From Verrucomicrobiia bacterium (GTDB lineage Bacteria > Verrucomicrobiota > Verrucomicrobiia > Chthoniobacterales > UBA6821), in assembly GCA_026398175.1 (NCBI GenBank), contig JAPLTJ010000002.1, positions 1-35,961 of the forward strand: a DNA stretch of 35,961 nucleotides, written 5' to 3'. The notes under the pieces were generated by a model. That model saw nothing but the letters and a program-made list of their open reading frames with translations, had not been told where the DNA came from and ran no database searches. Positions 3,807 through 26,727 of the stretch are shown here, piece by piece (the first letter of the stretch is position 1; each line of letters starts with the position of its first letter). Both the position numbers and the translations under genes were made by a program.

Positions 3807-4061
3807 ATTCACAGGGATGGAAGGGATTAGAGCGTTTTAAAAAAAGTTATAGCCGATACAGTGCCAGGAACGAGGCGCGCAGACCCGCAGTGTATAGAGA
3901 TACTCGAGGACGCGAGCACCGGAGTGACGCCGCAATGTGCGGCTATAACTTTTTTGAAAATGCTCTAAAGAAAGTGGCCCTTTCAACCGCGAAGTGCAAC
4001 ACGTAAAAAAAATAGAAAGACTATTTTTCACCATCCCTTCCATCGCTTCTATCCCTGTGAG
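3807..4061. repeat. Inverted repeat pair (ACAGGGATGGAAG family) around a MITE
   Basis: Left arm 3807-3827 (ATTCACAGGGATGGAAGGGAT) and right arm about 4031-4061 are inverted copies of one word family, which recurs at 11792-11856, 11967-11995, 25507-25540 and 33748-33780. The right arm supplies the end of ccsA: its last codons GAC TCA CAG GGA and stop TAG lie in the repeat. If the MITE between the arms is removed, the arm spacing falls to roughly 65 bp, in the range seen for the other pairs. Confidence 0.75.
3828..3967. mobile_element. 140-bp MITE with 28-bp inverted ends and TA duplication
   Basis: Ends 3828-3855 and 3940-3967 are inverted repeats matching at 26 of 28 positions. The left end runs TAGAGC, an AT-rich stretch, then GTTATAGCCG. 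Both ends finish in TA, the target duplication typical of IS630/Tc1-mariner transposons. The interior (3856-3939) is GC-rich and codes for nothing plausible. No transposase is present, so it would need help in trans. It is nested between the two arms of an older inverted repeat. The family assignment rests only on the TA ends. Confidence 0.75.
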
Positions 4062-7587: not shown

Positions 7588-7631
7588 GTTAGTAAAGAAT
7601 TTAACCGCAAAAAATGCAGAACAAAGAAAAA

Positions 7632-7717
7632 ATTAACCGCAAAGAAGGCAAAGAGCCCAAAGAGCGCAAAGAAAGAGATATTAAATTTTTGCGCTCTTTG
7701 CGTTCTTTGCGGTTAAT
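7632..7717. repeat. Inverted pair of 9-mer arrays (GCAAAGARS family)
   Basis: Left arm 7632-7671 starts ATTAACC and continues with 9-bp words GCAAAGAAG, GCAAAGAGC, CCAAAGAGC and GCAAAGAAA. Right arm 7689-7717 is the inverted copy ending in GGTTAAT. A 13-bp perfect stem (7658-7670 with 7688-7700) closes a loop of 17 nt. A decayed copy lies at 7600-7627. The element fills the gap between the divergent starts of resB and the PAP2 gene. Similar AACCGCAAAG repeats occur in other phyla as far as I recall. Confidence 0.85.
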
Positions 7718-7766
7718 TTTCTTATTTTTGATTTTCTTTATGTTGCTTTGTAGTTAATTCTTAACC

Positions 7767-8427: not shown

Positions 8428-8575
8428 CAGTTCGCAGTTGTCAGAAAAATTAAAATCGACACTATTTATCTTCATCGTTAGCACCCTATTATTCACAAAA
8501 AGTTGTTATGATTTTTAAATTAACCAACGAGCTAAAATCAACTGACAACCGACAACTGACAACCGACAACTGTAA
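8428..8575. repeat. Inverted pair of heptamer arrays (CAGTTGT / ACTGACA family)
   Basis: Left arm 8428-8444 is CAGTTCG, CAGTTGT, CAG. Right arm 8541-8575 is ACTGACA, ACCGACA, ACTGACA, ACCGACA, ACTGTAA, the inverted word family in strict 7-bp phase. They are separated by about 96 bp. The right arm lies within the open frame of the next gene and would encode its residues 12-22. Confidence 0.85.
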
Positions 8576-10382
8576 TGACCTTGGTCGTTACAACTTTCCT
8601 TGCATTATTTTAAGTCTGCTGACGATCTTGAGATTAGTGCTGGCTGCTTGGGGACATCTGAGTGAAACCGAATCGTACCTCCTGCTTTGTTCTCACCATC
8701 TCGATTGGGGGTTTGTAGAAGGCCCTGCTGGAATTTCTGCGCTGATGCGGTTGAGCGAGGTGCTCTTGGGAAATGCTCCGCTAGCGATGCGGTGGTTCTC
8801 TCCCGTTCTTTTGCTTGGCACTTCTTGGATTCTTTGGAGGTTGACTGTGGCTCTTTACGACAAAAAGAGAGCATTTTGGACGGTGATTATTTTCAATCTT
8901 TTGCCACTCGCTAACGCAGCAGGGACCGTTATGGAAGGGACGATGCTAATAACGCTCTCTTGGCTTGCGGCTTTCTATCTGGCTTGGGAGCTGATCACCC
9001 AACAGCGACAAAAAAATAAAATTTTCCCTTGGTTTCTTTTTGGACTGATCTTGGCTATTGGAACGCAAGTGACTTATCAAATAGGATGGTTGCTGCCGCT
9101 GGTGGTGATCGCATCGTTAGATTATTTTCATAACGCTCTTGATACTAAGAATGCCGAAGTTGTTTCCTCATCGTGGCGGAGAGGTAGTGGTGTTTTGATG
9201 GCCATCTCGCTCTTAGGATTGAGCTGGCTGCCACTCCTCTTTTGGAACAATAATCACGATTGGGTGCAGTGGCAGGGAATGACATGGGATTCGTTTTGGT
9301 CATGGCCTCCTTGCGCGGATGATTATTTTCAATATCTGCCTCTGGTCTGGGCTCTCCTTCTTCTTGGACCGCTTCTCGTTGTTGCCGCTTGTTATTTTTC
9401 AAGGCTCTGGATGTTAGAAAGCCCCTTTTTTCTGCTCCTCTTGGTCCCTTTCTTTTTTGGATTGAATGAACTGGGCCATGCCAAAGTGCCCTTTGCACTC
9501 TTGTTGCTATTGACCGCTCTTTTTCTGCCGAGCACGGTCGATCTTTTTTTTCAAACCAAAAAATGGCAACGAGTGGGGGCGCTCCTGCTCATCGGCATCG
9601 GGTGTTGTTCGGTTTTGTTGTTGTTAGGAAAAATTTCTTCTTCAACAACGCAAGAGTCGCCTTGGAGTTTTCCATCAGCAACGGGCGTGATCGGAACAGA
9701 GGCTGCGGCAACACAGTTGCTCCAGTTGAGAGCAACTTATGCTGAGAACCTGTCTTCAAAGTCTACTGATGCTACGAATAACTGTGTCGCGCCGGTGCTC
9801 GCGCCATCGAGTACGTCAGGTACACTCAGTCGCTGTGCGCCGTCGACTCCTTGTTCTTCATGCAACTCGCTCGCTCCCGCGAGGCTCGCCCCTGCGGGGC
9901 TGCCTTCGGCAGTCGATCCGGCGGCTGCCACGCCGCACGTATTAGCCTCAGCGACTTTGAAGACAGGTTCTAACACCTCTGGAAGGGCGCCGTTCCTTAT
10001 TGCGGAGACGCCAGGTCTTGCAGCAATTTTAGGAGCAGTGTTACCGATCAACTACCCTGAGCTAAAAGATGCCCCATCCGTTTTTATTCCGGAATCTCCG
10101 GCACTAGTGAGTCAGTTTCTTTTTTGGCCTCATTATGCTGATGCCACCACTGAAAATACAACGCCAGACCCCCTCTACACCGAAGAGAAAGAGGTGAGTC
10201 CTTTTTTAGGTCATGATGCTTTTTATATCACCACCGAAAAATTAGAAGAGATTCCGCAAACCATCAGCGGAGCTTTTTCTGCAATCATCCCGCTCAGTGT
10301 CGTTCTCTCTCTTCAGAACAATGGGCAAACTGAAGAGCTAAAAATTTATTTGTGTCAGAGTTATCAGATGCTTTCGTTGTAA
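8508..10382 (+). CDS. Membrane glycosyltransferase, PMT/ArnT-like
   Basis: Resembles the dolichyl-phosphate-mannose mannosyltransferase/ArnT group (GT-C fold), which moves a sugar from a polyisoprenyl phosphate to lipid or protein outside the inner membrane. About ten hydrophobic segments occur in the first ~380 residues. The block SETESYLLLCSHHLDWGFVE with GPAGISALMRLSEVLLGNAP matches the family's first periplasmic loop, though the usual Asp-Glu before Tyr appears as Thr-Glu-Ser. The tail (PFLIAETPGLAAILGAVLP, SQFLFWPHY, GHDAFYI) fits the family's C-terminal domain. Two oddities: residues 12-22 are encoded by a heptamer repeat, so the true start may be a later TTG or GTG near 8628-8640, and residues ~413-488 are encoded by an in-frame GC-rich palindromic element. 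Confidence 0.72.
   Translation: MIFKLTNELKSTDNRQLTTDNCNDLGRYNFPCIILSLLTILRLVLAAWGHLSETESYLLLCSHHLDWGFVEGPAGISALMRLSEVLLGNAPLAMRWFSPVLLLGTSWILWRLTVALYDKKRAFWTVIIFNLLPLANAAGTVMEGTMLITLSWLAAFYLAWELITQQRQKNKIFPWFLFGLILAIGTQVTYQIGWLLPLVVIASLDYFHNALDTKNAEVVSSSWRRGSGVLMAISLLGLSWLPLLFWNNNHDWVQWQGMTWDSFWSWPPCADDYFQYLPLVWALLLLGPLLVVAACYFSRLWMLESPFFLLLLVPFFFGLNELGHAKVPFALLLLLTALFLPSTVDLFFQTKKWQRVGALLLIGIGCCSVLLLLGKISSSTTQESPWSFPSATGVIGTEAAATQLLQLRATYAENLSSKSTDATNNCVAPVLAPSSTSGTLSRCAPSTPCSSCNSLAPARLAPAGLPSAVDPAAATPHVLASATLKTGSNTSGRAPFLIAETPGLAAILGAVLPINYPELKDAPSVFIPESPALVSQFLFWPHYADATTENTTPDPLYTEEKEVSPFLGHDAFYITTEKLEEIPQTISGAFSAIIPLSVVLSLQNNGQTEELKIYLCQSYQMLSL
9745..9971. mobile_element. 227-bp palindromic element inserted in frame in a gene
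   Basis: A perfect 19-bp inverted repeat (AGAACCTGTCTTCAAAGTC at 9745-9763, its complement at 9953-9971) bounds a GC-rich interior in an otherwise AT-richer gene. Similarity extends inward (CTGATGCTA versus CTGAGGCTA). The interior contains small hairpins (GCCCC-TGC-GGGGC, CTGCC-TTC-GGCAG, GTAC-GTCAG-GTAC). It stays open in the host frame and adds about 75 residues of Ser/Pro/Ala/Cys-rich, low-complexity sequence between ATYAENL and RAPFLIAE. This is the pattern of Rickettsia palindromic elements. No transposase and no clear target duplication are seen. Confidence 0.75.
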
Positions 10383-11799: not shown

Positions 11800-11998
11800 A
11801 GGGATAAAAAAATGGAAGAGAGAGGAGAATTCACAGGGATGGAAGCGATGGAAGGGATAAAAGAAATATTTATAAATTGAAATGGAATTTTAAAAATGTC
11901 GTTAGAACTTGGTGGTATCTTATTCAAAAACTAAAACTAAAACTAAAAAAATGTAAATTTTATAAGCCCTTCCATCGCTTCCATCCCTGTGAATTATT
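11792..11998. repeat. 29-bp perfect inverted repeat between ABC genes
   Basis: Arms 11828-11856 and 11967-11995 are exact inverted copies (AATTCACAGGGATGG, AGCGATGGAAGGG), 110 bp apart. A third, decayed copy (11792-11820) covers the GTG start of the permease gene. The right arm covers the first two bases of the ATPase stop triplet (plus-strand 11994-11996). Both genes should share an mRNA, so the arms would form a large intercistronic hairpin. Confidence 0.9.
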
Positions 11999-25433: not shown

Positions 25434-25540
25434 ATTCGCTAAAAACCGCTAAATTAAAAAATTCTTTTTCGTGATAGTTCGCGTATTTCGCGGTTTATAA
25501 ATTCTTTTTATCCCTTCCATAGCTTTCATCCCTGTGAATA
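25421..25540. repeat. Repeat-filled gap between actE and actF
   Basis: 25421-25454 (AACCGCTAAATTCGCTAA and more) and 25478-25500 form an inverted pair, with 15 of 18 core positions matching, only 23 bp apart. It is followed at 25507-25540 by a copy of the ACAGGGATGGAAG family in inverted orientation. The first array supplies the actE stop; the second supplies the GTG start of actF (CCCTGTGAATAA). This is the longest intercistronic gap within the act genes. Confidence 0.8.
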
Positions 25541-26727
25541 AATCTTCTTCATCTCCAAGCCCTGAATACTTCGACTACAAGCATGTCGGGGGACGCTTTA
25601 TGGGCCTTGTTTCCGTGGCGATCGTATCATTAGTGGTTTCTTTTCTTCTTGGGATGCACCATCCCAAGCAGTTTGCTTTTTCATGGTTGTTTGCCTTTTT
25701 CTATTTTATGACAATCGTGATTGGGAGTCTCTTTTGGATCCTCGTGCATCATGGTATTGACGTAGAATGGAGCGTCGGAGTTCGCCGACAGATGGAGAAT
25801 GTTGCAAGCCTCTTCCCGGTGATGGCCTTTCTTTTTGTTCCTCTGATTTTTGTAGCGCCTCGACTTTGGACATGGATGACGATTCCTCATGGCGCTGATA
25901 TTCAGCTGATGGAAAAAGCGGCTTATCTCAACCTTCCTTTTTTCTGGATGAGAGCAGCCTTCTATTTTCTCTTTTTTAGCACAGTGGCTTTGTGGCTCCG
26001 TAAACTTTCCGTAGCTCAAGATAAAACGGGTGATCCAAAATATACCATGATGGCCCGGAAAATAACCTTTGCGAGCCTTCCCTTCTTCGCGGTTTGCCTT
26101 ACTTTTGCTGCCGTTGACTGGCTCATGGGGCTTGATTTTAAATGGGTCTCGACGATGTGGGGTGTCTATATTTTTGCTGGTTCTGCATTGAGCTCTCTTT
26201 GTGTCATTCTCCTCATTGTGACAGCACTTCGCTCCGCGGGTTATCTGCAAGGAATTGTTTCAGAGCGACACTATTCTCTCATGGGACAATTGATGACAGC
26301 CTTTACTGTTTTCTGGGCATATATCGGTTTTGACCAATACATGCTGATTTGGTATGCCAACATTCCTGAAGAGACGATTTATTTTTTGCGTCGCAATACG
26401 GAGAGTTGGTGCACGCTCAACATGATTTTGGTCGTCGGACATTTTTTAATTCCTTTCGTGCTTTTGCTGTTTCGTAATCCAAAACGTCGGCCTGCTTATC
26501 TTTGTGGTGTTGCTTTTTGGATTTTGCTCATGCATATGCTCGATATCTATATTGTCGTCTTGCCGATGATCCATCCTGCTGGATTTGCTCCAAGTATTTT
26601 TGATGTTCTGGCTCTTCTTGCCATTGGATGCACGCTTGCAGCTGTTTTTCTCAAACGCTTGGGAGATGTTCCTCTCTGGCCGTTGCGCGATCCACGTTTA
26701 AAGGATTCTATTAACATTGCTGTGTAA
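25534..26727 (+). CDS. actF: Alternative complex III subunit F
   Basis: 397 residues, about ten membrane helices, distantly related to ActC. Diagnostic stretches: FWILVHHGIDVEWSVGVRRQ, ending of the helix WVSTMWGVYIFAGSALSSLC, and TVFWAYIGFDQYMLIWYANI followed by PEET. ActF is thought to contribute to proton translocation. The start is GTG at 25534, lying in a dispersed repeat; the only other candidate (Met near residue 23) would cut into the first helix. Confidence 0.93.
   Translation: MNKSSSSPSPEYFDYKHVGGRFMGLVSVAIVSLVVSFLLGMHHPKQFAFSWLFAFFYFMTIVIGSLFWILVHHGIDVEWSVGVRRQMENVASLFPVMAFLFVPLIFVAPRLWTWMTIPHGADIQLMEKAAYLNLPFFWMRAAFYFLFFSTVALWLRKLSVAQDKTGDPKYTMMARKITFASLPFFAVCLTFAAVDWLMGLDFKWVSTMWGVYIFAGSALSSLCVILLIVTALRSAGYLQGIVSERHYSLMGQLMTAFTVFWAYIGFDQYMLIWYANIPEETIYFLRRNTESWCTLNMILVVGHFLIPFVLLLFRNPKRRPAYLCGVAFWILLMHMLDIYIVVLPMIHPAGFAPSIFDVLALLAIGCTLAAVFLKRLGDVPLWPLRDPRLKDSINIAV

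Follow-up and report, generated by a model that had tools for sequence, protein, structure and literature searches.

A family of palindromic hairpin elements located in frame in protein-coding genes of a verrucomicrobial genus and resembling Rickettsia palindromic elements

The glycosyltransferase gene and its insert

The window analysed here is a stretch of 35,961 nucleotides (contig JAPLTJ010000002.1, positions 1 to 35,961) belonging to a draft verrucomicrobial genome of 1.97 Mb in 186 contigs, which is designated below as G000. To judge from neighbouring gene content and the best ActB matches, this genome probably belongs with uncultured relatives of the Chthoniobacterales/Spartobacteria. 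Between 8508 and 10382 it contains an open reading frame uninterrupted by stops, which according to the ORF list encodes 624 amino acids including an insert of 76 residues. The product matches Pfam PF13231 at residues 73-201 and has orthologues in 24 of the 27 other genomes searched. The features considered in the text are the following (basis of assignment in brackets):

8508-10382, plus strand: host gene, membrane glycosyltransferase, PMT_2/GT39-like (ORF, Pfam PF13231, orthologues)
9743-9745, no strand: left target triplet TGA (TNA duplication seen on comparing sister species with and without the insertion, target-duplication table)
9746-9970, plus strand: composite in-frame insertion, outer 144-bp hairpin plus inner 81-bp element (repeat family, orthologue in genome G005)
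9746-9861, plus strand: outer element, 5′ portion comprising left terminal arm and core (alignment, covarying fold A2)
9862-9942, plus strand: inner nested GC-rich element, 81 bp, about 27 extra residues (copies elsewhere, absence from the G005 orthologue)
9943-9970, plus strand: outer element, 3′ portion including the right terminal arm (repeat search, alignment of copies)
9971-9973, no strand: right target triplet TAA (target-duplication table)
3825-3970, minus strand: diverged intergenic member of the hairpin family (covariance model, local alignment, inverted repeats)

The initial annotation of this locus described a perfect 19-bp inverted repeat around 189 nt, lying in a host frame that stays open and gains about 75 residues, and both statements proved accurate: the arms occupy 9745-9763 and 9953-9971 with a spacer of 189 nt, and the frame is enlarged by residues 413-488. 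Empty sites and other copies refine the boundaries of the element proper to GAACC...GGTTC at 9746-9970, and this composite together with one triplet of target duplication accounts for the 76 codons gained. The 19-bp arm has no further match in the window at up to 3 mismatches (0.02 expected by chance), folding of 9745-9971 as single-stranded DNA gives z = -4.6, and an Rfam scan of the window copy recognised neither an intron nor any other known RNA family. Structure modelling shows residues 424-489 as all coil with pLDDT of about 30, bordered on either side by better-predicted parts.

Size and distribution of the family

A DNA search with 9735-9981 revealed 50 places in G000 among the matches listed, and these fall into two parts of the query: segments 11-127 and 209-237 represent an outer element, and segment 127-208 an inner element of 81 bp. 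Thus the interior enclosed by the arms is GC-rich, as initially described, but it is not a single unit, being for the most part a second, nested element. The outer element is 144 bp long with terminal arms of 16-19 bp and contains no transposase gene. Its peptide consensus finds 84 matching places in G000 among the matches listed, and with a covariance model there are at least 80 matches in G000 and at least 80 in G005, followed by 56 in G002, 26 in G003, 25 in G001 and 7 in G004, so that the family is present in 6 of 6 genomes of the verrucomicrobial genus and the glycosyltransferase copy is by no means solitary. The same model has zero matches in 32 further genomes from the family and order, and a peptide search over 387 genomes of the phylum gave outside the genus one marginal match (G286, E = 4e-4) with a stop. 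Side by side with these dispersed copies, a Rpn/PD-(D/E)XK-like gene present in multiple copies in G003 and G004 carries the element (L164, L167, and L171), which therefore may also spread with that gene.

Another member lies within the window itself. The element at 3828 had been assigned to a separate family, and this opinion is overturned: the covariance model matches 3825-3970 on the minus strand with E = 1.7e-23, and a local alignment scores 70, shuffled sequences reaching at most 31. This copy is nested in a different palindromic repeat (3807-4060).

Other repeats of the window may be mentioned here. The 3807-4060 repeat (TTCACAGGGATGGAAGG.../...CCATCGCTTCTATCCCTGTGA) recurs at 11828-11995 and 25500-25544. 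One more long imperfect palindrome, AACAAAGAAAAAATTAACCGCAAAGAAGGC..., occupies 7620-7729; other members of its family are present in the genome, and the family likewise harbours the 81-bp element (L009, L018, and L023). An array of 18-bp tandem repeats at 1055-1306 encodes a (GVGQS)-like repeat in ORF 906-1826.

Empty sites and target duplication

The mode of insertion is best seen in one GT4 gene, whose three orthologues in G000, G005 and G002 each have the element in a different position. The empty site of G000, CTTTC-TGA-AGAACC, corresponds to CTTTC-TGA-[GAACC...GGTTC]-TGA-AGAACC in G005, and the filled site of G002, CC-TCA-[GAACC...GGTTC]-TCA-GCG, is empty in G005; for the third site, which has a different arm type, a 3-bp duplication of ATT is the preferable reading. 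An element of 144 bp with a 3-bp TNA duplication produces a net gain of 147 bp and therefore of 49 codons. Among 18 GAACC-type copies the target triplets are identical in only 9, a point against the origin proposed below, and the lengths keep the frame in all 18.

Nested acquisition of the inner element

Comparison of the glycosyltransferase with its relatives, proposed along with the initial annotation, separates the two components. Neither insert is present in the orthologues of G001, G003, G004 and eleven genomes of the sister genus, residues 413-488 being missing from the latter, while the G005 orthologue has the outer insert only: 49 residues at a site identical to that of G000, where 76 residues are found because the inner 81-bp element sits within the outer one. 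In the G002 orthologue this loop is occupied by a short, unrelated stretch of low complexity. An analogous pair is provided by a Sua5-type gene, where the inner element is present in L197 and missing from the orthologue L280 at the identical site, and two more nested copies reside in hosts of G005 (L291 and L292). The inner element comprises 27 codons, is stop-free in all six frames and is also found alone and within other palindromic repeats.

Several unrelated palindromic repeat families contain it (matching loci L007, L008, L011, L012, L014, L015, L018, L023, L024, and L026), and it therefore seems to favour repeats as landing sites. Shorter relatives of it occur in the sister genus. A membrane protein gene of G000 (L062) contains an outer copy with an additional in-frame insertion of 78 bp, which in the frames examined is unlike the 81-bp element and is possibly a third nested element.

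Conservation of the hairpin and low divergence of shared insertions

Alignment of 56 copies defined 40 base pairs, formed in 92.9% of cells, with double compensatory changes in 28 of the 40; the covariation score is 0.437, whereas shuffles give 0.153 and slid partners no more than 0.089. The arms differ strongly between copies, and the two arms of one copy have a mean match score of 10.25, the largest of 2000 permuted means being 6.61. Since the arms match within a copy far better than between copies, they change together and the core stays.

Most insertions of G000 and G005 are not common to both genomes. Three that are differ by 3, 6 and 0-1 of 146 nt, the dS of their host genes being 0.36-0.72; differences between the two genomes amount to 10/438 in the elements versus 120/897 in the flanks (p = 3e-12), and the orthologous inserts are closer to one another than to their own paralogues. 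Gene conversion was considered as the source of this near-identity and is weakened by the nearest G000 paralogues being at least 9 differences away. Possible explanations are constraint at the nucleotide level or short-tract exchange between species. In the pairs L046/L155, L049/L177 and L197/L280 the inserts are several-fold less diverged than the surrounding host codons.

Both the compensatory changes maintaining the pairing and the 0-6 differences at such dS values could mean that the inserts are beneficial, i.e., domesticated by the host as regulatory mRNA hairpins or functional loops and kept by selection, instead of being selfish DNA that is tolerated. We regard this as unlikely, since the majority of insertions are unshared, one gene carries the element at different sites depending on the species or lacks it altogether, the insert is predicted to be disordered, and the low divergence is also explicable by the short-tract exchange.

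Positions in coding genes

Inside long ORFs with flanks on both sides lie 29 of the 49 confident copies of G000, while weak copies in the -0 frame having no flanking homology (L209, L210, and L217) were excluded from the genic count. All 29 use two frames, 19 one sense and 10 one antisense, which are the only ones of six that the outer element generally leaves open; because genic copies are recognised through open frames, 29/29 describes these copies and cannot serve as independent proof. According to NCBIfam, the hosts include SecA, MetRS, LeuRS, DnaX, HolA, PurF, Tgt, MiaB, IspH, NuoG, aconitase AcnA, threonylcarbamoyl-AMP synthase (TsaC/Sua5-type) and UDP-galactopyranose mutase, and the insert peptide of the family includes STDAANNCVAPVLASSS. 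Alignments with PDB entries place the insert between contiguous homologous stretches, with 50 residues versus 5 in Tgt, 57 versus 1 in LeuRS and 56 versus 9 in PurF; in SecA the homologous stretches adjoin across the insert, and in aconitase the gap relative to the structure is larger than the insert because a poorly aligned linker precedes it. Protein models and annotations from this genus should thus be used with the awareness that they include foreign loops of about 49 residues.

Every indel scored in genic copies (9 of 9) is a multiple of three, as against 2 of 21 in intergenic copies (p = 4e-6), a statistic that is partly circular for the same reason of recognition and from which L217 and L281, proved not genic, and L286, of misdetected length, were left out. 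No genes split out of frame were found among the candidates inspected in G000 and G005. Those that looked broken (L059, L185, L187, and L188 in G000 and L281 in G005) are really neighbouring genes.

A stable covarying hairpin within coding regions, interrupting the cores of enzymes many of which are essential, might suggest removal of the insert ahead of translation or in its course, either by RNA splicing or by translational bypass of the kind mediated by byp elements. This is very improbable, because an open frame would then be unnecessary: removal creates no need for in-frame location, absence of stops and indels in multiples of three, whereas genic copies display all three, and Rfam recognised no known intron or RNA family in the window copy.

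Two further explanations have a negligible chance: ordinary low-complexity expansion of a loop in a single glycosyltransferase, for which the unrelated stretch at the same loop in G002 might speak, is refuted by the recurrence of this DNA, arms included, at 80 or more places and by target duplications and empty sites, and misjoining of repeats into genes, conceivable for a fragmented metagenome assembly in 186 contigs, is contradicted by three insertions that an independently obtained genome from another species has at identical sites and by dozens of host frames open on both sides in six genomes.

Proposed origin and mobilisation

We therefore consider the insert as a non-autonomous, MITE-like hairpin element of about 144 bp with TNA duplication, spreading through genes as Rickettsia palindromic elements (RPEs) do, and estimate the probability of this reading as roughly 0.9. 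The hairpin would be mobilised in trans and enter at TNA. With a net gain of 147 bp and stop-free sense and antisense frames, an insertion in the right phase would keep the gene readable and add a flexible loop of 49 residues. Insertions in permissive phases would survive at the price of a disordered loop in the product, and those in other phases would break the gene and presumably be purged by selection. Within G000 the window copy has in addition received the second element of 81 bp with six open frames. The insert is probably translated, and its influence on the host protein may be close to neutral.

As to the enzyme, terminal inverted repeats, short length, lack of a transposase gene and target duplication are features of MITEs, and TNA duplication with GAACC/GAGCC-like tips is known for the IS5 family (IS1031-type); an IS5-type, TNA-duplicating transposase may act in trans. 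Here, unlike IS5-family MITEs, no matching autonomous IS was found in the genus: among the transposases inspected after a PF01609 search of six genomes those with clear ends are IS4-like with non-matching CACTACTGTCCGG ends, a PF13586 search gave fragments only, and a search with arm patterns in G000-G005 yielded no long pair of terminal inverted repeats and no autonomous partner. The strong difference of arms between copies is odd for one transposase.

A bolder and rather doubtful proposal is that the hairpin has become a routine component of the proteome throughout the genus, being kept as an mRNA/DNA hairpin by compensation, translated in essential enzymes, slower to change than the host gene and serving as a landing place for other in-frame elements. 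If so, coding mobile elements would here form a nested system in which selection acts at the nucleotide level after insertion.

Comparison with known systems

In-frame palindromic DNA spread through essential genes is described chiefly in Rickettsiales, and our literature searches found no report of such elements in Verrucomicrobiota. Among non-autonomous hairpin repeats, ERIC, YPAL/RU-2 and Correia/NEMIS have open frames able to fuse to host ORFs (PMC2229807). They are primarily intergenic with occasional fusions, whereas here core housekeeping enzymes are the common case. About 50 MITE copies, some of them in frame, are described for QMITE1/QMITE2 of Coxiella burnetii (PMC5896051); the in-frame cases in the excerpted account concern hypothetical proteins or gene ends, with neither nesting nor a comparable set of essential hosts. 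The byp elements of Magnusiomyces mitochondria, which the ribosome skips (as cited in PMC6649704), are likewise palindromic inserts inside genes, but here the frame and the stop-free state are kept.

RPEs are small palindromic repeats of 105-146 bp found in intergenic regions and in frame in unrelated conserved genes (PMC10969869; PMC2229807), with 44 copies in R. conorii, nearly half of them in ORFs (PMC10969869), and a target duplication entered as “?” (PMC2229807). They provide the closest parallel, the likeness being one of architecture and genic behaviour with RPEs taken as reviews describe them. Translation of an RPE insert is reportedly exemplified by gmk. Similarly to RPEs, which are palindromes of about 100-150 bp with a long stem-loop, and to Wolbachia palindromic elements, the present element has 144 bp and 40 covarying pairs; as with RPEs, its copies are both genic and intergenic, about half genic (29/49), add a flexible peptide and lie in frame in many unrelated conserved genes, 29 genic copies being counted in G000. 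The initial suggestion that a PVC-group genome harbours an RPE-like family of in-frame genic elements is supported by the presence of at least 80 copies and by the absence of residues 413-488 from sister-genus orthologues.

Thus a distant phylum offers an independent and larger case, in which several species supply natural before/after pairs, together with precise empty sites and target duplications. On this material one can test how proteins are enlarged by selfish DNA while the cell survives, why some element sequences stay free of stops in two frames and whether the inserts are truly neutral. Besides the phylum, the present family differs from RPEs by a clear 3-bp TNA duplication, more copies per genome, two usable frames, one sense and one antisense, arms that have diversified around one covarying core and the nesting of a second mobile element in frame, which, with two genes having a single-element orthologue here, is to our knowledge undescribed for RPEs.
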